From positions 1 through 64,000 of the forward strand of contig JAETRR010000011.1 of NCBI GenBank assembly GCA_021770065.1: DNA of 64,000 bases, given 5' to 3'. Below the pieces are notes generated by a model that ran no database searches, was not told where the DNA came from, and worked only from the letters and a program-made list of their open reading frames with translations. A program made the position numbers and the translations under genes. Positions 4,693 through 62,756 of the stretch are shown here, piece by piece. This DNA is from Lachnoclostridium sp. GTDB lineage: Bacteria; Bacillota; Clostridia; Lachnospirales; Lachnospiraceae. The stretch's first letter is position 1; each line of letters opens with the position of its first letter.

Positions 4693-4712
4693 TACGGAAC
4701 TGGAATAGGAGG
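4693..4712 (+). repeat. Solo tail of the structured repeat (RBS module)
   Basis: A tail identical to the 3' end of the hairpin repeat family (GGAACTGGAATAGGAGG, preceded by TAC) sits eight bases before the DUF4956 start and supplies its ribosome binding site. No hairpin arms are present here. It may be a deletion relic of a full element or the ancestral leader the element grew from. Confidence 0.7.
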
Positions 4713-5419: not shown

Positions 5420-6877
5420 ATGATTCAGATATTCAGGCTGTGTGGGCGCGGACTGCGTTATGTGAGGCAGTACGGGCCCATACAATTATATTACAAAATA
5501 AAAGAACGCAGTGAGAGAAACCAGGCGGAGGCCGGGTATGAGACATGGCTTGAGGAACAGATGGAAGAGGAACAGGAAGCGTCTTCCCGGGCAGCAGAAT
5601 TGTCAGAGACCGGACCTCTTTTCAGTATTCTGGTGCCGGCCTACGAAACGCAGCCTCTTTTTCTGTGCCAGATGATAGAATCGGTGCTCGGGCAGAGTTA
5701 TAAGAATCTGGAACTCTGCATTGCGGACGGCAGCCTCTCCGACCGGGTGAAGCTGATTGCAGAGGAGTACGCCGGGAAAGACTTTCGTGTACATTATAAA
5801 AAACTGGAACAGAATCTTGGGATCTCCGAGAATACCAACGCAGCCCTGTCCATGGCAGAGGGAGACTATGTGGGGCTTCTGGATCATGACGATCTCCTGC
5901 TGCCCGGCGCTCTGTATGAGACGGCAAGAGCGCTTAAGGAGTCGGGAGGCGCAGATGCAGCGTACACGGATGAGGATAAGGTGAATATGGATCTTTCCCG
6001 TCATTTTCAGCCGCATTTTAAGCCGGATTTTAATGCCGAATATCTTCTCAGCAACAATTATATCTGCCATTTCTTTGTGGTGAAGCGGGGGCTTGCCCTG
6101 GAAATCGGGGGATTCCGGAGTGATTTTGACGGGGCACAGGACTATGACTTCATTCTGCGATGTACAGAAAAAGCGGAAAAGGTACTGCATATTCCAAGAA
6201 TCCTTTATTCCTGGCGCTGCCATGAGCAGTCCACGGCGGCCAATCCGGAGAGCAAGCTTTATGCCTATGAGGCGGGAAAACGGGCCGTGAATGCCCATTT
6301 GAAGCGTATGGGAATCCCGGGAGAAGCGCTCGATACTTCCAGCTATGGTTTTCACCGGATCCGCTTCTTTGGGAAAGGTTCGAAAATCTTAATAAATTCT
6401 TTTGCAAATTTAAATGGACAAACGGGCATAAAAGTTGTATATTATGATAAAGCATGTAACAATTCTGTAACAATTCCGCAGAATAGTGATTATGTGCTTT
6501 TTACGTGCGTCCGGAACGAAAAGCTCTCCGGGAACTTCCTGGAAGAACTTCTGGCCTGCTGTGGGCGGCCGAAGATAGGCATTGTCTGCGCAAGAGTGTA
6601 TGACAGGAAGGGAAGGCTTTCCTCAGACATCCGTATGGCGGGTGTACAGGATCCTTTCGGAGGGAGCATAAAGGGCCTTAAGGAGGGAGAAACCGGATAC
6701 TTTCACAGGGCTGTGCTTCACCAGGAAATTACGGCTCCCACAGACTGCTTTCTTGTAAAGGGAAGGCTTTTGGAAGGGGCAGGGAAGCTTACCGTGAAAG
6801 AGCTATGTGCATATATCAGAAAACAGGGATATCGGATGGTTTACAATCCGTGGGCGGTAGTGTATGAAGGCAGATAA
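5420..6877 (+). CDS. Family 2 glycosyltransferase, two-part
   Basis: A 485-residue GT2 (GT-A fold) glycosyltransferase. After about 65 residues of lead, the nucleotide-sugar domain starts with FSILVPAYET, followed by the metal-binding acidic motif LLDHDD near residue 157 and a QDYDF acceptor/catalytic region near residue 240. Residues 320-485 look like a second, degenerate GT-like domain without a clear DXD motif. The layout resembles rhamnan or exopolysaccharide chain enzymes. There is no membrane segment, so it should act on the cytoplasmic face on a lipid-linked acceptor. It overlaps the next GT2 gene by 14 bases, implying coupled translation. Donor and acceptor cannot be assigned. Confidence 0.85.
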   Translation: MIQIFRLCGRGLRYVRQYGPIQLYYKIKERSERNQAEAGYETWLEEQMEEEQEASSRAAELSETGPLFSILVPAYETQPLFLCQMIESVLGQSYKNLELCIADGSLSDRVKLIAEEYAGKDFRVHYKKLEQNLGISENTNAALSMAEGDYVGLLDHDDLLLPGALYETARALKESGGADAAYTDEDKVNMDLSRHFQPHFKPDFNAEYLLSNNYICHFFVVKRGLALEIGGFRSDFDGAQDYDFILRCTEKAEKVLHIPRILYSWRCHEQSTAANPESKLYAYEAGKRAVNAHLKRMGIPGEALDTSSYGFHRIRFFGKGSKILINSFANLNGQTGIKVVYYDKACNNSVTIPQNSDYVLFTCVRNEKLSGNFLEELLACCGRPKIGIVCARVYDRKGRLSSDIRMAGVQDPFGGSIKGLKEGETGYFHRAVLHQEITAPTDCFLVKGRLLEGAGKLTVKELCAYIRKQGYRMVYNPWAVVYEGR

Positions 6878-7823
6878 CAGGGTATCTATAGTGGTGCCAA
6901 ACTACAATGGGATGGCATTTGTGGAGCGGTGCTTAAAGGCACTGACAGAGGATGCGCCGGCGGCCGAAATCCTTTTGGTGGACAACGGTTCTACAGACGG
7001 AAGCCGGGAGTTCGTAACGGAACATTTTCCGCAGGTCCGTGTAATTGCCCTCGAAGAAAATTACGGTTTCTGCCGGGCAGCCAATGAAGGAATGAAGGCG
7101 GCCGGGACGCCTTATGTGATTCTGCTGAACAATGACACAGAGGTACTTCCGGGTTTTACAGAGGCACTGGTGTCGGCGCTCCAGCTTGAGCCCGGGGCGT
7201 TTTCAGCCGGAGCGAAGATGATTCAGCTTTATCATCAGGAAAAAATTGACGATGCTGGCAATTTTTACTGCGCTCTCGGCTGGGCTTTTGCGAGAGGAAA
7301 AGATAAGTCTGTGGAATACTATGAAAAGCCGGATGAAATTTTTGCGGCCTGCGGCGGCGCCGTAATCTACCGGAAAGCCCTGCTGGAGCGGATCGGATAT
7401 CTGGATGAGGCCCATTTTGCCTATCTGGAGGATATTGATCTGGGCTGGAGAGCCAGGATCGCGGGCTGGAAGAACATTTACGTTCCCGGGGCAAAAGTCC
7501 TTCATGTGGGGAGCGGAACCAGCGGTTCCAGGTACAATGAATTTAAAGTGTCTTTAAGTTCCAGAAACAGTGTTTATCTGGCTTATAAGAATATGCCGTC
7601 GCTGCAGATTCTTTTAAATCTTCCTTTCCTGCTGGCCGGATTTGGCATAAAATATCTCTTTTTTGTAAAAAAAGGTTTTGGAAAAACCTATCGAAAAGGA
7701 TTGAAAGAGGGGTTTTCTATGTGCCGCAGGGAGAAGAAAGTAAAGTTTTGTTGGAAAAATCTTCCCTGTTATGGTAAAATCCAAATAGAACTTTGGATAA
7801 ATATTGGGAAGAGATTTAGGTGA
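6864..7823 (+). CDS. Family 2 glycosyltransferase (rhamnosyltransferase-like)
   Basis: A 319-residue GT2 enzyme with VSIVVPNYNG at the N terminus, VDNGSTDGS near residue 38, the metal site LLNNDTEV near residue 92, and YLEDIDLGWR near residue 191. This pattern is typical of rhamnosyl- and related transferases of polysaccharide clusters. A hydrophobic, basic C-terminal stretch (about residues 245-275) could hold it on the membrane. It starts inside the upstream GT2 gene and ends six bases before the sugar-phosphate transferase, so all three probably share one transcript. The sugar is not assignable. Confidence 0.85.
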   Translation: MKADNRVSIVVPNYNGMAFVERCLKALTEDAPAAEILLVDNGSTDGSREFVTEHFPQVRVIALEENYGFCRAANEGMKAAGTPYVILLNNDTEVLPGFTEALVSALQLEPGAFSAGAKMIQLYHQEKIDDAGNFYCALGWAFARGKDKSVEYYEKPDEIFAACGGAVIYRKALLERIGYLDEAHFAYLEDIDLGWRARIAGWKNIYVPGAKVLHVGSGTSGSRYNEFKVSLSSRNSVYLAYKNMPSLQILLNLPFLLAGFGIKYLFFVKKGFGKTYRKGLKEGFSMCRREKKVKFCWKNLPCYGKIQIELWINIGKRFR

Positions 7824-11384: not shown

Positions 11385-11422
11385 ATACGGAACTGGAAAC
11401 TACGGGACTGGAATAAGAGGAG
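11385..11422 (+). repeat. Double tail remnant of the structured repeat before glmS
   Basis: Two imperfect copies of the repeat tail follow each other (GGAACTGGAA, then GGGACTGGAATAAGAGGAG), the second giving the glmS ribosome binding site. No hairpin arms lie between them. This looks like a tandem element that lost its hairpin, or two nested tails. Confidence 0.6.
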
Positions 11423-13256: not shown

Positions 13257-13277
13257 ATTTTGAGAAGGAACTGGAAA

Positions 13278-13506
13278 CAGTAATATCCTTTTCAACGCAC
13301 AAATCAATTTACAGACGCAGATTTTTGCGGCTGGAAATTGATTTAGGCTTAGGTGTGTTGGAAAGGATATTACGGAACTGGAAACAGTAATATCCTGACA
13401 ACGCACAAATCAATTTACAGACGCAGATTTTTGCGGCTGGAAATTGATTTAGGCTTAGGTGTGTTGGAAAGGATATTACGGAACTGGAATAGAACTGGAA
13501 TAGGAG
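13278..13506 (+). repeat. Structured hairpin repeat, tandem pair upstream of pyrF
   Basis: Two copies of the dispersed hairpin element in tandem with a 107-base period. Copy one pairs GTAATATCC (13280-13288) with GGATATTAC (13365-13373), copy two 13387-13395 with 13471-13479. Inside, AAATCAATTT pairs with AAATTGATT, leaving the conserved unpaired TAGGCTTAG on the 3' side, and CAG-CGCA/TGCG-CTG closes the apex. The second copy ends in a duplicated tail (GAACTGGAATA twice), then TAGGAG five bases before the pyrF ATG. Confidence 0.85.
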
Positions 13507-14459: not shown

Positions 14460-15233
14460 ATGAAGTACAAAGAGACGGCAGTGATCACAGAGCAGCGGGA
14501 AATAGCCCCGGATATATTCAGCATGTGGCTTCAGACGGATGCAATTGCAAAAGAGGCTGTACCGGGACAGTTTATTTCCCTGTACAGCCATGATAAAAGC
14601 AGAATGCTTCCAAGACCCGTCAGTATCTGTCAGATTGACGGGACGAAGGGAAGAGTCCGTCTGGTATACCGGATTGCCGGAAAGGGCACAGAGGAATTTT
14701 CCGGCTACGGAAAAGGGGATACCCTGGAAGTAGTGGGGCCTCTGGGCAACGGCTTTCCTCTCAATCGGGAATATGACAGGGTTTTTCTCGTGGGCGGCGG
14801 AATCGGAATACCTCCCATGGCAGGGCTTGCAGAAAGGCTGCCGGGTGAAAAGCTGATTGTAGCAGGTTACCGGAACAGCGAGGTTTTTTTGAAGGAAGAA
14901 CTGGAGAAAAACGGGAAGCTGTATCTTGCTTCCGAGGACGGAAGCGTAGGAACAAAGGGAAATGTGCTGGATGCCGTCCGGGAAAATCATTTAACTGCCC
15001 AGGCTCTTTTCGCCTGCGGTCCTGCCCCCATGCTCCGGGCATTAAAAGCCTATGCGGCAGAGCAGGGGATGGACTGTTATCTTTCCCTGGAGGAACGTAT
15101 GGCCTGCGGCGTGGGGGCCTGCCTGGCCTGTGTGTGCCGCTCGATGGATGTGGATGCCCATACCCACGTTAAGAATAAGCGGATCTGCAAAGATGGGCCC
15201 GTATTTTCGGCGGATGAAATTGATTTAGGCTAA
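14460..15233 (+). CDS. pyrK: Dihydroorotate dehydrogenase B electron-transfer subunit
   Basis: A 257-residue PyrK, the FAD and [2Fe-2S] subunit that passes electrons from dihydroorotate dehydrogenase to NAD. The FAD domain shows RPVSIC near residue 46 and GKGTEEFS near residue 75; the NAD-binding GGGIGIPP follows near residue 118. The iron-sulfur cysteines are in ERMACGVGACLACVC near residue 212 with a fourth cysteine in KRICKDGPVF. It sits 21 bases after pyrF and 22 before pyrD, as expected. Its last codons and stop coincide with a 25-base match to the dispersed repeat. Confidence 0.95.
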   Translation: MKYKETAVITEQREIAPDIFSMWLQTDAIAKEAVPGQFISLYSHDKSRMLPRPVSICQIDGTKGRVRLVYRIAGKGTEEFSGYGKGDTLEVVGPLGNGFPLNREYDRVFLVGGGIGIPPMAGLAERLPGEKLIVAGYRNSEVFLKEELEKNGKLYLASEDGSVGTKGNVLDAVRENHLTAQALFACGPAPMLRALKAYAAEQGMDCYLSLEERMACGVGACLACVCRSMDVDAHTHVKNKRICKDGPVFSADEIDLG

Positions 15234-15240
15234 GGTGTAC
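15216..15240 (+). repeat. Half-copy of the structured repeat at the pyrK stop codon
   Basis: Twenty-five bases from GAAATTGATTTAGGC through AAGGTGTAC are identical to the 3' arm of the hairpin repeats (for example at 50463-50482). They encode the final residues of PyrK and its stop. The 5' arm is not present. Either part of an element inserted at the gene end, or this junction donated sequence to the element. Confidence 0.65.
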
Positions 15241-15255
15241 CGAGAGGAGATGTAT

Positions 15256-37149: not shown

Positions 37150-37384
37150 CAAATTTCTATAAACTTTCTAAAATTTTTATAAAACGGGATGCGGACTGGC
37201 TTGCAAATGAGCCTGCCACTTGTTTTCGTCCGCTTTTCCCGAACATGTAAACTGTATCCCACTGCCTTCTGAGGGCACTATAAATTATGAAAAAATTAAT
37301 AGAAATATACTGGATTTGCATGTAGAGGGGTGTTATTATATAAATTGGCAGGCCCGTGAAGGCCGGAGAACTATATTTTGTGAC

Positions 37385-37532
37385 TTTACCCTTTAGTGCT
37401 GCCTGGCAGCGACTTAAAACAGTAATATTCTTCACAGTGCACAAATCGATTTACAGACGCATGTTTTTGCGGCTGGAAATTGATTTAGGCTAAAGTGTAC
37501 TGTGAGGAATATTACGGAACTGGAATAGGAGG
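37385..37532 (+). repeat. Structured hairpin repeat, long form, upstream of SGNH gene
   Basis: Long form with a 5' module (TTTACCCTTTAGTG, then a GCTGCC/GGCAGC mini-hairpin) before the main hairpin. The main stem pairs GTAATATTC (37422-37430) with GAATATTAC (37507-37515), a compensated change from the GTAATATCC/GGATATTAC of other copies. TTCACAGTGCAC pairs with GTGTACTGTGAG. The tail GGAACTGGAATAGGAGG ends six bases before the GTG start. Confidence 0.88.
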
Positions 37533-43603: not shown

Positions 43604-43972
43604 TTGACAAATCTTCTGATTTTGCATATTCTAAAGCATAGATGGATGCAGAGTGTATTTGGAAATAGTGGGTATGAAATTGGAATAGGGAAAGGCGGAG
43701 AACGGAAAAGTAATTCATTTCCGAAGCAGCAGAGAGAAGCTGTCGATGGCTGAAAGCAGCTTTTGTGAAGGGATGGATGAAGTGCATCCGGGAGCTGATC
43801 CGGTGAGTGGAAAGGCGGCAGGGGCTGTTTTGTGACAGGTATTCTGCAGTGCGGGAACATAAGCCGGGTACGTGGCGCGCGTTAAGCGGATGAGTGGAAG
43901 GGCAGTCTGCCCTTTTAGAAGAGTGGAACCGCGGATTATTTCGTCTCTTGGAGACGGGGTAGTCCGTTTTTT
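43604..43972 (+). promoter_or_regulatory. Cysteine T-box leader with promoter and terminator
   Basis: TTGACA (43604-43609) and TATTCT (43627-43632) are 17 bases apart. The transcript would hold a stem I with a GAAGTGCATCC bulge, giving TGC (Cys) as specifier codon, then the T-box sequence GAGTGGAACCGCGG at 43921-43934. A terminator (CGGATTATTTCGTCTC with GAGACGGGGTAGTCCG, then six T) competes at 43932-43972. Uncharged tRNA-Cys should allow readthrough into cysE-cysS. Confidence 0.88.
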
Positions 43973-44079: not shown

Positions 44080-44793
44080 ATGGGTATTATTTGCTATGTT
44101 AAGGAAGAATTCAGGGTGATTACAGAACGGGATCCTGCTATTAAAAGTCCTATGGAGGTCTTGCTATACCCCAGCTTTCGTGCTATCTTAAGTTACAGGC
44201 TGGCACATAGGTGGTATGAGAGGGGGCACTATTTTCTTGCCAGATGGCTGTCTCAGAGAACGGTGCGGAAAACGGGCATTGAGATTCATCCCGGGGCTAA
44301 GATAGGAAAGGGTCTGTTTATTGACCATGGTTCCGGTGTGATCATTGGGGAGACGGCGATTATCGGCGATAATGTGACTCTTTATCAGGGAGTGACGTTA
44401 GGCGGTACAGGCAAGGAAAAGGGCAAGCGTCATCCTACTTTGAAGGATAATGTGATGGTGAGCGCCGGAGCCAAGATTCTGGGTTCCTTTACCATCGGGG
44501 AGAATTCCAAGATCGGTGCGGGATCTGTGGTGCTTAAGGAGGTACCGCCGAACTGTACGGTGGTCGGCGTTCCGGGCCGCATTGTGAAACGGGGAGACGT
44601 GAAAGTTCCCAGAAGCGATATGAACCAGGTGGATCTTCCGGATCCGGTTATGGACAGTCTCACGGAGCTTCGCCGTGAAAATGAGCGGCTTCATGCGGAA
44701 TTGGCGGAATTGAAGAAAAAGAAAGAAAAAAAGGAAAAAGATAAAAAGGACAAGGAAAAAGCAAAAAAGGAGAAACAGAATGAAAATCTATAA
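44080..44793 (+). CDS. cysE: Serine O-acetyltransferase
   Basis: A 237-residue CysE that makes O-acetylserine for cysteine synthesis. The left-handed beta-helix is clear: [21 protein letters not shown] near residue 67, then [16 protein letters not shown] with catalytic residues and [10 protein letters not shown]. The C terminus ends in about 30 residues of nearly pure lysine/glutamate, an unusual tail that also carries the ribosome site of cysS. It overlaps cysS by 14 bases. Control is by the cysteine T-box upstream. GGAGGAGGG precedes the ATG. Confidence 0.96.
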
Positions 44794-48303: not shown

Positions 48304-49917
48304 TTGTCGAATTATGTAATGGGCACCGGTCCTTACCTGTTGGCCGGCTTTCTGACATATCTGGTTTTTCGGGCGGTTATCTGGCTTTTGTATTATAAGG
48401 GAGAGATGCGTGTACCTATTCTGCACGAAGCAGGATTTGCCCTGCTTGCATTTCTGTTCCTTGCCCTGTTTGCATCCTCTGTGTCACCGGCCCTTGGCTT
48501 TTCTTTAAAGCCGGATTGGAAGACAATCTCTTTTATTCCTGTAAAGGGAAGCATTGATTTGGTAAAGAGCCAGGGTATAGGGGCTCTCTTCGGGGCGGTT
48601 GCCAGGTTTATACCATTCGGCTTTCTGATTCCCCTTTTATTCCGTCGCTATCAGCGGTTTTTTAAGGTGCTTTTTCTGTGCGGAGGAGTATCTTTTATTA
48701 TAGAAGTGTTCCAGATTTTTCTTACAGGCGTAACGGCCAGTCTGGATGAATTTCTTTTAAGCCTGGCAGGGATTTTTCTCGGGTATTTCCTGTTCGGAAT
48801 CGTAAGAATTTATTTTCGTGAAATTGAGCGTATGGGGACAGTAAAGCGTTCACGAAGGAGAGACGTTCCCTTTATAGTGAAAAAGGAACTGGAATTTCTG
48901 GTGGTTCTTCTGTTTGCGGCAGTTATGGCGACAGGAACCCGGATGGAGGTTCAGCGTGTAAAGGAGGAAAAGGCAGCCCGGGCGGAGCTGGAAAAGAAGC
49001 AGGAAGAGGAGCGCAGGGCTGCACAGGAAGCCGAGGAGGCACGGATTGCAGAGGAAGAAGCCAAGAAGCTGAAGGTGTCGGATCAGATGCCGGAGCTTTC
49101 CCTGGAAGCAGGGACGGCCTGCCTGTTTTCATTGGATGACGATATGATTCTCTATGAGAAAAACGGGACAGAACGGGTGGTTCCGGCTAGTACCGCCAAA
49201 CTTCTCACGGCTTTGACGGTGCTGAAATATTGCGGAGCGGATGAAGTTCTGACGGCAGGCGAGGAAATCAGCCTGATCAGCCAGGGAGCATCCACTGCAA
49301 GCCTGAAAACGGGAATGCGGGGGAGTGTCCGGACGTTCCTGGGAGCCATGCTGATCCCTTCGGGCAATGATGCGGCTTATTCCCTGGCCAATTATACGGG
49401 ACATAAGATTCTGGGGGATGAAAATGCTTCCACGGCCGATGCGGTAGCGGCATTTGTGGAGGCCATGAATGCGTATGGGGCAGAACTGGAGCTGGAGGAT
49501 TCTAACTTTGTGACACCGGACGGAGACCAGGCAGATAACCAGTATACCACGGCCAGGGATATGGTGCGGATCGCAAAGGCCTGCATGGGGAATGAGACCA
49601 TAATGGAGATTGTTAAGGGCAAGTCCTTCCGCGCTCTTTTTGAAAATGCGGATATTACCTATCAGAACAGCAATCAGCTTGTCCGTCCCGGAGATACCTA
49701 TTATTATGAGGGGGCTGTGGGTCTGAAAACCGGCAGTGTTGATGATGCCAAATGTCTGGTGGGAGCTTTGGAGGCAGACGGCCGCCGCTACGTGGCCGCC
49801 GTGATGCAGGATACGGACGAGGGGCGGTATAAAGATATGAAGATTCTGTTTGACCATGTGACAGGAGGCGGCAGTGAAACGCCTGAGACAGAAGGTGAAG
49901 GCGGGGAGGAAGAATAG
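48304..49917 (+). CDS. VanZ-like domain fused to D-alanyl-D-alanine carboxypeptidase
   Basis: A 537-residue fusion. Residues 5-165 form a VanZ-like membrane domain with five hydrophobic segments, and another segment spans about 197-215. A charged coiled coil (about 217-255) leads to a peptidase S11 (DacA/PBP5-like) domain with the three catalytic motifs: STAKLL near residue 298, SGN near residue 353 and LKTGSVDDAK near residue 478. The S11 part would trim D-Ala from stem peptides outside the cell. VanZ proteins can lower teicoplanin binding. TTG 48304 follows GGAGGGG. TATAAT at 48275-48280 marks its own promoter. Confidence 0.88.
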   Translation: MSNYVMGTGPYLLAGFLTYLVFRAVIWLLYYKGEMRVPILHEAGFALLAFLFLALFASSVSPALGFSLKPDWKTISFIPVKGSIDLVKSQGIGALFGAVARFIPFGFLIPLLFRRYQRFFKVLFLCGGVSFIIEVFQIFLTGVTASLDEFLLSLAGIFLGYFLFGIVRIYFREIERMGTVKRSRRRDVPFIVKKELEFLVVLLFAAVMATGTRMEVQRVKEEKAARAELEKKQEEERRAAQEAEEARIAEEEAKKLKVSDQMPELSLEAGTACLFSLDDDMILYEKNGTERVVPASTAKLLTALTVLKYCGADEVLTAGEEISLISQGASTASLKTGMRGSVRTFLGAMLIPSGNDAAYSLANYTGHKILGDENASTADAVAAFVEAMNAYGAELELEDSNFVTPDGDQADNQYTTARDMVRIAKACMGNETIMEIVKGKSFRALFENADITYQNSNQLVRPGDTYYYEGAVGLKTGSVDDAKCLVGALEADGRRYVAAVMQDTDEGRYKDMKILFDHVTGGGSETPETEGEGGEEE

Positions 49918-50186: not shown

Positions 50187-50390
50187 ACATCTCCTATTCA
50201 TTTTCCTGTATTCAGATTTTTTTATTGTTTGCAAAATGCGTGGAAACATGCGGCAGGACACAGAAAAAACACAGGAAGATCACATATTTTCCATAGAAGC
50301 GCCACAATTGCACCATAATTTTTGCTTACAATAAGCACAGTAAAACAAATGAAGTTCAAATTTAAACACAGCAGGATTTTTGTGTATTGC

Positions 50391-50621
50391 GGAACTGGAA
50401 AACAGTAATATCCGGACAGTGCACAAATCAATTTTCAGACGCAAGTTTTCTGCAGCTGGAAATTGATTTAGGCTAAGGTGTACTGGAAGGATATTACGGA
50501 ACTGGAAACAGCAATTTCCTTTTCAACACACAAATCGATTTACAGACGCAGTTTTTTGCGGCTGGAAATTGATTTAGGCTAAGGTGTGTTGAAAAGGAGA
50601 TTGCGGAACTGGAATAGGAGG
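50391..50621 (+). repeat. Structured hairpin repeat, tandem pair upstream of htrA
   Basis: Two tandem hairpins, period 106. The first pairs GTAATATCC (50405-50413) with GGATATTAC (50489-50497). The second pairs GCAATTTCC (50511-50519) with GGAGATTGC (50596-50604), and TTTTCAACACAC with GTGTGTTGAAAA perfectly, so changes in one arm are matched in the other. Both keep AAATTGATTTAGGCTAAG. The tail GGAACTGGAATAGGAGG ends nine bases before the htrA ATG. Confidence 0.88.
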
Positions 50622-50630
50622 TCTCAAGAA

Positions 50631-51824
50631 ATGAAAAAAGGATTAAAAACCATAGCCCTGGCGTTGGTATTCGGTGTGACGGCCAGCGCAGCATTTCAAG
50701 GAAGTAATTTATTAATAGAGCAGTGGACAGGAGAAGAAGCGCAGACAGAGATAACGGGAGGCGTTCAGCTGAATCAGACTTCCGGTCAGACAGCAGGAGG
50801 AGAAGTGAATACGAGCAGCACTGCAGGCGCAGCAAAGGACATTTCCGGAATTGCCAGCCAGGCAATGCCTTCGGTAGTCTCTATCACCAACAAGAGCGTA
50901 CAGGAAATGCGTCTGTTCGGACAGTCCCAGGCATTTGAGAGCGAAAGCCGGGGAACGGGAATCATTATCGGCCAGACAGATACGGAACTTCTCCTTGTAA
51001 CGAATCATCATGTAGTAAATGGTGCAAATGAAATCAGTGTGGGTTTTGTGGATGGTGAGATAGCGGAGGCGAAGCTCAAAGGTTCCGACACAGGCAGGGA
51101 TCTGGCAGTCCTGTCTGTGAAAATGGAAGAGATTCCCGCAAAAACAAAGGAAGAGATTCGTGTAATAGAACTTGGAAAATCCTCCGAACTCAAGGTAGGA
51201 GAGCAGGTGGTGGCTATCGGCAACGCCCTTGGCTACGGACAGTCTGTAACTACAGGAATTGTAAGCGCTCTTAACCGGGAAGTGACGATTGAGAATAACA
51301 CAAATACACTGATTCAGACAGACGCAGCCATCAACCCGGGCAACAGCGGCGGTGCGCTTCTGAACATGAACGGCCAGCTTATCGGCATCAACTCTGCAAA
51401 ATATTCCGACACGAATGTGGAGGGTATGGGGTATGCCATTCCGGTGGACGATGTACTGGATATAATCGAAGGACTTATGAACCGGACCTTACGGGAAGAG
51501 AAGGCTCCGGAGGGTGAACAGGGCTTCCTGGGAATCACCGGACAGGACGTGACCACGGAAGTATCAGATGCCTATGATATGCCGAAGGGAGTTTATATTA
51601 CTTCTGTGGAAGAAGGCTCCGGAGCGGCAGCGGCAGGACTTAAGAAAGGGGACATTATTACAAGATTTGACGGCAGCAGCGTAAGCACACTGGCGGAACT
51701 TAAGGAGCAGCTTTCTTATTACAAAGAAGGCGAGCAGGTGAAGCTTACTGTGAGCATGGCGGCAGAAGGAGAATATCAGGAACAGGTTGTAACAGTGACT
51801 CTTGGAGAGAACAAGGGACAATAA
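50631..51824 (+). CDS. HtrA/DegP-like serine protease
   Basis: A 397-residue membrane-anchored S1C protease for extracytoplasmic protein quality control. A signal anchor covers residues 6-24, then a low-complexity Gln/Thr/Gly linker. The catalytic triad appears as TNHHVVNGA (His), GRDLAVL (Asp) and NPGNSGGALLN (Ser, near residue 238). A single PDZ domain (about 300-390) has VEEGSGAAAAGLKKGDII. Length and order are those of Firmicutes HtrA. Its ribosome site is within the repeat tail. The next feature is palindrome copy 3. Confidence 0.94.
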   Translation: MKKGLKTIALALVFGVTASAAFQGSNLLIEQWTGEEAQTEITGGVQLNQTSGQTAGGEVNTSSTAGAAKDISGIASQAMPSVVSITNKSVQEMRLFGQSQAFESESRGTGIIIGQTDTELLLVTNHHVVNGANEISVGFVDGEIAEAKLKGSDTGRDLAVLSVKMEEIPAKTKEEIRVIELGKSSELKVGEQVVAIGNALGYGQSVTTGIVSALNREVTIENNTNTLIQTDAAINPGNSGGALLNMNGQLIGINSAKYSDTNVEGMGYAIPVDDVLDIIEGLMNRTLREEKAPEGEQGFLGITGQDVTTEVSDAYDMPKGVYITSVEEGSGAAAAGLKKGDIITRFDGSSVSTLAELKEQLSYYKEGEQVKLTVSMAAEGEYQEQVVTVTLGENKGQ

Positions 51825-57578: not shown

Positions 57579-57613
57579 AAATTATTTCTTGCTGGACGGT
57601 AAAGTCGAAGCTG

Positions 57614-57762
57614 CTTTACCCTTTAGTGCCATCGCGCAGCGATTTTGAACAGTAATATCCTTAACAGTGCACAAATCAATTTGCAGGCACAGCTTTAGGG
57701 GACTGGAAATTGATTTAGGTTAAAGTGTACTGTCAAGGATATTACGGAACTGGAATAGGAGG
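57614..57762 (+). repeat. Structured hairpin repeat, long form, between nanE and the ROK kinase
   Basis: Long form inside an operon. The 5' module is CTTTACCCTTTAGTGCC with the TCGC-GCA-GCGA mini-hairpin (57632-57642). The main stem pairs GTAATATCC (57652-57660) with GGATATTAC (57737-57745). The apex differs from other copies but keeps CAG/CTG. The conserved bulge is TAGGTTAAA here. The tail AGGAGG ends eight bases before the kinase ATG. A GGTAAAG/CTTTACC hairpin overlaps its 5' end (57598-57620). Confidence 0.88.
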
Positions 57763-62607: not shown

Positions 62608-62756
62608 TTTACCCTTTAGAGCCATCGCGCAGCGATTTTAAAACAGTAATATCCCTCACAGTGCACAAATCGATTTACAGACGCATGCATCTGCGGCTGG
62701 AAATTGATTTAGGCTAAAGTGTACTGTTAGGGATATTACGGAACTGGAATAGGAGG
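62608..62756 (+). repeat. Structured hairpin repeat, long form, between PTS EIIB and EIIC
   Basis: Long form within the PTS operon, 13 bases after the EIIB stop. The 5' module is TTTACCCTTTAGAGCC with TCGC-GCA-GCGA. The main stem pairs GTAATATCC (62646-62654) with GGATATTAC (62731-62739), and CTCACAGTGCAC with GTGTACTGTTAG. The tail GGAACTGGAATAGGAGG ends eight bases before the EIIC ATG. Confidence 0.9.

Follow-up and report, generated by a model that had tools for sequence, protein, structure and literature searches.

Family A, a hairpin unit of about 107 nt, is probably a non-autonomous, BOX-like mobile element that has inserted just 5′ of purine tracts resembling Shine-Dalgarno (SD) sequences and whose fold is under selection; we assign a probability of about 0.6 to this reading. 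The window, that is, the whole stretch of 64,000 nucleotides that was analyzed, opens contig C72 (its first 64 kb) in a draft genome of 4.14 Mb (G000). The copies of family A have a strict position and orientation before genes, covary in their stems, occupy sites in one species whose orthologs in another are empty, grow in tandem, and include truncated and internally deleted forms.

Copy number, fold, and covariation of family A

Seven units of family A occupy five sites of the window, as the original prediction stated, and their coordinates were re-read (Table 1). The starts that had been placed at 37385, 57614, and 62608 lie inside truncated copies of a second hairpin family, family B, and are not starts of family A. 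The earlier count of seven copies gives way, genome-wide, to about 103 sense copies. A BLAST search of family A against its own genome gave 58 matches. The covariance-model search that had been proposed was performed with a model built from 46 own copies and gave 141 matches, which a hand count of the rows divided into 103 sense copies and 38 reverse-strand shadows of the same hairpins; the former number may be low because 150 of the 2287 candidates were scored. In contigs C142, C72, C56, C28, C93, and C17, a family A or B unit lies about 120 bases or less from a contig end; the repeats thus seem to interrupt the draft assembly, and the copy number may be underestimated. Using nhmmer on the fetched loci with their flanks, we obtained 117 sequence-distinct hits to family A (102 full length), of which a few may be double-counted because overlapping loci can give the same copy different hit ends. 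We found the tail GGAACTGGAATNGGAG 72 times in the genome and its reversed control 0 times. Thirty of the 72 tails have no adjacent match to the model, and 20 of these 30, on inspection, were 5′-truncated, internally deleted, or bare tails.

Table 1. Coordinates of the hairpin units, remnants, and tails in the window.
Feature	Position	Strand	Remark
Family A unit 1 before pyrF	13276..13383	+	
Family A unit 2, tandem, before pyrF	13383..13489	+	then TAGAACTGGAATAGGAG, ATG 13512; PyrF by TIGR02127
Family B remnant, 5′-truncated (TTTACCCTTTAGTGC..GGCAGCGACTTAA)	37381..37417	+	
Family A unit before GDSL-lipase gene	37418..37525	+	GTG 37539
Older family A unit, partial 3′ end (GTGTATTGCGGAACTGGAA)	50382..50400	+	
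Family A unit 1 before htrA	50401..50507	+	
Family A unit 2 before htrA	50507..50614	+	outer stem compensated GCAATTTCC/GGAGATTGC; HtrA-family matches
SD of htrA, AGGAGG	50616..50621	+	ATG 50631
Family B remnant lacking its middle (outer stem ends and linker kept)	57603..57647	+	
Family A unit between NanE-family and ROK-family genes	57648..57755	+	ATG 57771
Family B remnant, 5′-truncated	62608..62641	+	
Family A unit between PTS IIB-like and IIC-like genes	62642..62749	+	ATG 62765
Solo tail GGAACTGGAATAGGAGG before DUF4956 gene	4696..4712	+	same tail in sister species G005
Double solo tail before glmS	11389..11420	+	slot has A or B hairpins in relatives
Family A internal remnant, junction of two pyrimidine-operon ORFs	15199..15247	+	
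Probable decayed family A remnant, promoter/T-box leader interval	43646..43690	+	ends by eye; two full units in G005

Each unit is arranged in the order AACAG, outer stem, middle stem, inner stem, apex, inner stem, 8 unpaired nt, middle stem, outer stem, and CGGAACTGGAAT, and the last of these is mostly followed by AGGAGG and a start codon. The ends AACAG...CGGAACT(NNAAT) are fixed, and the three stems are free in sequence yet paired. About 8 nt on the 3′ side of the hairpin are unpaired. The conserved apex has the consensus AUUUACAGRC...GYCUGGAAAU and resembles a site at which a trans factor would recognize the element. The positions that are at least 90% constant in 63 aligned copies are those of AxCAGxA, AUUUxCxGxC...GxGxCxGGAAAU, and UxCGGxACU. 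Five leaders of the window, folded with one unit per site and including the SD and the start, gave z-scores of −5.7 to −9.1 against dinucleotide shuffles, and 0 of 200 shuffles were as stable. The AGGAG(G) motif lay outside the hairpin in all five leaders and was unpaired in four of the five centroid folds; the expression cassette or translation control that had been proposed is a conjecture.

The paired changes that had been noted in the arms (GTAATATCC/GGATATTAC against GCAATTTCC/GGAGATTGC, and CAAC/GTTG against CAGT/ACTG) are present, and the pattern holds genome-wide. Among the 46 own copies, two-sided changes were found in 14 of 35 pairs (6.1 in shuffles) and 96.5% of the cells paired. 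We then ranked pairs by corrected mutual information in 144 distinct copies (102 own and 42 from relatives, the remainder of the 255 hits being partial, weak, or identical). The top 12 consisted of 11 predicted base pairs and 40/55, where A.G (90) and G.A (38) interchange; the 13th and 14th (14/89 and 16/87) lengthen the outer stem, and the first non-nested pair, which lies in the unpaired stretch, ranked 16th. In the 63 distinct copies, which come from several genera, 30 of 35 pairs varied on both sides, with 331 two-sided cells against 90.1 (s.d. 10.3) in shuffled alignments and at most 61 in slid controls; this alignment was fitted to the structure, which favors pairing, whereas the 46- and 144-copy alignments were made without it. 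The proposal that covariation keeps the structure is upheld by these counts. G.U cells numbered 257 and A.C cells 45 (77 and 45 without two habitual G.U columns), an excess that favors folding of the sense strand, as RNA or as top-strand DNA. We did not retain this asymmetry as proof of RNA, since it weakened once the two columns were left out.

Quasipalindrome correction can produce double changes in stems, and palindromic DNA repeats might be kept by such mutation mechanics without selection on structure. The arrays do change by local duplication, as this account would have it. However, the A.G to G.A swap at 40/55 restores no Watson-Crick pair, the other genera read retain the 3′-side unpaired stretch and the purine mismatches where correction would have made a perfect palindrome, the apex and the ends do not drift freely in the 63 rows, and the strict position is left unexplained. 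We therefore consider this origin of the stems very improbable.

The free stems and the strong covariation would also fit a host-selected RNA. In such a host cis-regulatory RNA, which on the whole we regard as unlikely, a trans factor at the apex would set the translation or stability of about 100 unrelated genes, and a useful leader would spread. The conserved apex and ends and the free but paired stems across genera argue for it. Among the private changes, 12 two-sided ones keep the pair and 8 break it, and 12 one-sided ones keep it and 28 break it; we estimate that independent hits would give about 0.1 to 0.5 two-sided private changes. However, source copies selected for mobility would yield the same private changes.

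Position relative to ribosome-binding sites and family B

Of 114 copies with a complete 3′ end, 96 have a start codon on the same strand within 60 nt (90 of them at 10–22 nt). In 16 the next feature is another A unit and in one (L003) a further hairpin with B, and the last copy is at the end of its locus; seven of the 16 A-then-A cases and L003 were assigned by reading rows. Thus, 113 of 114 lead to a translation start, directly or via units. In a strict test that required a start 10–22 nt away, at least 50 codons, and an SD-like motif, 82 of 106 family A copies passed. The same test was passed by 0 of 100 copies when read outward from their 5′ end, by 795 of 20000 positions drawn at random from the window, and by 417 of 4000 positions in the first 100 nt past a gene end. 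Among non-tandem full copies, the SD core begins 5–8 nt past GGAACT in 74 of 81 from this genome and in 24 of 32 from relatives. These values agree with the expectation of a non-random orientation and distance to the start codon. For 77 of 90 copies, the 200 nt upstream contain the end of an ORF on the same strand (by a heuristic, for copies with sufficient upstream sequence and no tandem neighbor), which indicates that most copies lie between co-directional genes.

The downstream genes are unrelated, as had been claimed. In 83 of the 90 downstream protein references (the other seven looked like duplicates or wrong reading frames), we found 135 Pfam families, each in at most three proteins. 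A metabolite riboswitch was rejected because the downstream genes are not functionally linked, and a single regulon was rejected because the proteins have no functional theme. The same lack of a theme speaks against the host-regulatory RNA, although the fixed spacing to the SD speaks for it. A promoter role was also discarded: at one filled site, in G005, the element lies 3′ of a recognizable promoter, TTGACA-17-TATTCT (hexamers by eye), and is therefore within the leader there.

The original prediction held that the hairpin carries the ribosome-binding site, which is now doubtful and probably wrong: conservation stops at CGGAACT-NN-AAT, beyond which the SD takes varying forms. At the T-box site of G005, which has no AGGAGG, the unit ends in GGAACTGGAAT and host sequence AAGAAAAGG follows; this filled site in a relative suggests that the SD is probably the target and not the cargo. 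At the GDSL gene, the AGGAGG and its spacer resemble those of the hairpin-free site of G006, which has a tail-like sequence. At pyrF, the filled sites do not have the same SD as the empty ones; this difference would be consistent with an element that supplies its own SD. On balance, judging from these sequence comparisons, we hold with moderate confidence that the SD tract is the target rather than the cargo.

The earlier description omitted family B, the solo tails, and the decaying copies. Family B consists of a hairpin GGTAAAGTCGC...GCGACTTTACC with the inner stem GAGAGGAACTTTCAT/ATGAAAGTTTCTCTC, a short hairpin GTCGCGCAGCGAC, and AATAGGAGG; the genome contains 98 copies of its linker. The fetched loci gave 75 B hits: 29 are followed by a start codon, 24 by an A unit (20 of these assigned by reading rows), and 20 by B; one is incomplete and one lies at the end of its locus. 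Two different hairpin families, A and B, use the same slot in the same orientation, and they have a common junction at AATAGGAG. A slot common to two families is as expected for insertion sites and not for one regulator, which again counts against the host-regulatory RNA. Homology of A and B through a common GCAC/GTGT stem was considered and dropped because the A copies of some other genera lack this stem.

All seven copies of another hairpin, TAGTCCAGC...GCTGGAC, among the fetched loci (L003, L050, L122, L148, L170, L172, and L175) directly adjoin B on its 5′ side; the L003 copy lies at 1608 on the reverse strand, and the reverse strand of this hairpin has a CTTGACA-like sequence. Upstream of htrA in G009, locus L152 has the same ends, AACAGCAATC..GATTGCGGAAC, with a different interior, and this variant is perhaps another family.

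We can tentatively extend the picture to a mobile class that homes to ribosome-binding sites, in which a folded RNA or single-stranded DNA copy would be inserted in sense through AGGAGG pairing or microhomology and in which A and B would be convergent; this extension is possible, but we place it on the doubtful side.

Occupancy, growth, decay, and taxonomic spread

The pyrF site contains two A units in G000 and a B remnant plus one A in G005, and none was found in the 260 nt examined in the other 14 genomes of the genus. At the glmS site, A is present in G006 and G015, a truncated A in G005, and B in G004 and G008, and G007 has none; tails were recognized by eye in G000 and G009, which the script scored as partial A and empty, respectively. 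The T-box site has two A units in G005 between the promoter and the leader and a decayed remnant in G000, and it is empty in G004, G006, G008, and G009 with both flanks recognizable. The T-box leader itself (RF00230, Rfam) lies at 43689–43951 in the window and at 6447–6908 in locus L168. Orthologous sites filled in one species and empty in another indicate that family A moves, and together with the about 103 copies they bear out the mobility that had been proposed. At pyrF, glmS, and the T-box gene, whose flanks have diverged between species, we saw no duplication of the target site; the exact junctions of the element rest on few sites.

We examined 44 genes of the window in as many as eight relatives, of which the least covered contributed 12 genes; bare tails are as the script assigned them. 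Full hairpins in more than one species occur at three genes: at pyrF two species have A, at glmS two have A and two have B, and at the gene at position 44780 G008 has A and G004 has B. The other genes vary. Hairpins in more than one species at 3 of 44 genes exceed the expectation of pure drift, which is a counterpoint to the mobile reading. The glmS slot, occupied in several species by A, B, or tails and by an A-like remnant in G286, which is of another genus, likewise favors a host-selected RNA. However, occupancy differs between sister species, and many copies are truncated or mere tails.

Tandem arrays contain two to three family A units. The members of an array have common private tail variants (AACTATAA and AACAGGAA), and AACTATAA is present in the partial, first, and second units of L013; these shared variants indicate that arrays grow in place. 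Among the 117 hits, 12 lack the 5′ end, three lack both ends, and none lacks the 3′ end alone, an asymmetry that is partly built in because the loci were chosen by full-length or tail matches. The remnant at the junction of the two pyrimidine-operon ORFs, found without such choice, has lost both sides. The last codons and the stop (..DEIDLG) of the ORF at 14460–15233 lie inside it, and a former 3′ arm of family A may have given rise to the SD of the following gene.

A constant 3′ junction with variable 5′ truncation would also result if synthesis switched template between AGGAGG tracts, on DNA or reverse-transcribed mRNA, and copied an upstream leader with a variable 5′ stop. The B remnants with an A unit directly after them (24 of the 75 B hits), the partial units that stand before full ones, and the junction common to A and B at AATAGGAG are consistent with such SD microhomology. 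On the other hand, a fold kept across genera asks for a factor that reads it, a plain deletion bias with the SD retained would give 5′ truncation as well, and the sampling of loci favored intact 3′ ends. We judge template switching to be quite improbable as the origin of family A.

Within the genus, family A was found in 8 of 16 genomes (the own genome and seven congeners). In a sample of the bacterial family, model R1 matched 6 of 397 genomes and the broader R2 matched 8 of 397, each in a different genus, and in a class-wide sample the single match in 391 genomes was the window's own genome; these two samples were searched with stricter filters and nine scored candidates per genome, so the counts are lower bounds. 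Diverged copies occur in seven other genera, of which five were read (G028, G188, G199, G286, and G295), leaving G260 and G385. Among named genomes, the DNA pattern was present in six stretches of four genomes (three “Clostridia bacterium” MGBC isolates and one “Bacterium 1XD21-13”). On a glmS tree, the carriers are scattered with at least four changes on supported branches; the carriers G199 and G260 had no glmS match at the cut-off, and this single gene is possibly transferred or paralogous. We did not retain the tree as a test of transfer against loss, which a single gene cannot decide.

Plasmids and phages had no match to one A and one B consensus, and viral contigs had none to one exact pattern for each family. 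The Y1 transposase family PF01797 is present in five of eight carriers and three of eight non-carriers of the genus (draft genomes, in which absence is soft), and a Y1 transposase was rejected as the mobilizer because this distribution does not fit, three of the eight carriers being without PF01797. Rfam models at the gathering score did not match the window elements or nine further loci, no Rfam intron matched in the window, and a relaxed search of 50350–50700 returned eight miRNA-, snoRNA-, or snRNA-type models, all with E above 1. In the open-licence literature, we found no description of the element, which is weak evidence of absence. In the window, 48304–49917 encodes a carboxypeptidase-like protein with D-type VanY resemblance and a weak VanZ-like match, both far below the NCBIfam cut-offs.

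Comparison with known repeats and implications

The nearest relative in style is BOX of Streptococcus pneumoniae. PMC3049150 describes short modular repeats, foldable if transcribed, with a tandemly repeated middle module and 86 copies in its Table 1. According to the same paper, nearby genes show no informative functional class, BOX is over-represented between convergent genes (16 convergent, 70 upstream of a CDS, P = 0.0017), its distance to genes decays gradually, and its placement is read as that of a parasite tolerated where selection is weak (PMC3049150). Family A is likewise short, interspersed, foldable, in part arranged in tandem, and without a functional theme. In contrast to BOX, all 113 placeable copies of family A lie upstream of genes in the sense orientation, with fixed spacing to the SD. 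The layouts, as read, also differ: BOX is boxA-boxB(n)-boxC, whereas family A is a single repeating unit and family B comprises three hairpins.

REP/BIME, ERIC, and Correia-type palindromes have many co-transcribed copies, some of them in tandem. The effects of such intergenic palindromes on transcripts are summarized in PMC3049150. Family A differs from them in its strict orientation and SD spacing, and, unlike the association of REP with RAYT, Y1 genes do not track its distribution. In Beggiatoaceae, TAACTGA direct repeats lie a few nucleotides upstream of the start codons of unrelated genes, and PMC4679880 suggests a translational role; family A, by contrast, is a 107-nt unit with a conserved fold that lies before a canonical SD. 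T-box and other leader riboswitches are also structured leader RNAs upstream of a start codon, but family A has no metabolic theme or Rfam match and its occupancy is polymorphic. As in MITE-like elements, the copies are many, short, and non-coding, with a strong secondary structure. In MITEs, inverted repeats extend to the termini; in family A the outer stem forms an inverted repeat, but the ends AACAG and CGGAACT are not mutually complementary over their length. Integron attC sites have R″/R′ boxes of the type AAC...GTT. An attC identity was rejected, since the ends of family A are AACAG and CGGAACT and its units abut without cassettes.

Under the preferred reading of a mobile hairpin, family A would insert one way round, directly 5′ of purine tracts that resemble an SD, both in transcribed leaders and in the gaps between genes of the same direction. 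A putative factor or enzyme would recognize a folded single strand with its fixed ends and apex, and the SD tract would serve as the insertion target. The inserted unit would become part of the 5′ leader of the downstream cistron, where the mRNA hairpin is predicted to stand about 11 nt 5′ of a mostly free SD; insertion would be tolerated since the hairpin pairs with itself and does not occupy the SD. Truncated copies are presumably decay products. The leader hairpin may stabilize or insulate transcripts, and a general regulatory role is probably absent.

Bacterial interspersed repeats are expected where they are least harmful, for example between convergent genes, as argued for BOX in PMC3049150. 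Family A does the opposite: it is found where such a parasite should be least welcome. If the hairpins were instead selected by the host, they would constitute a large unrecognized post-transcriptional regulon in gut bacteria. If a class that homes to ribosome-binding sites does exist, it would exploit one motif that most genes offer, and hairpin leaders would grow and shrink in tandem. If insertion is directed by the SD, it would be an unusual kind of target choice, and the same gene with the hairpin present, absent, doubled, or truncated would provide ready comparisons for the effect of the leader on expression.
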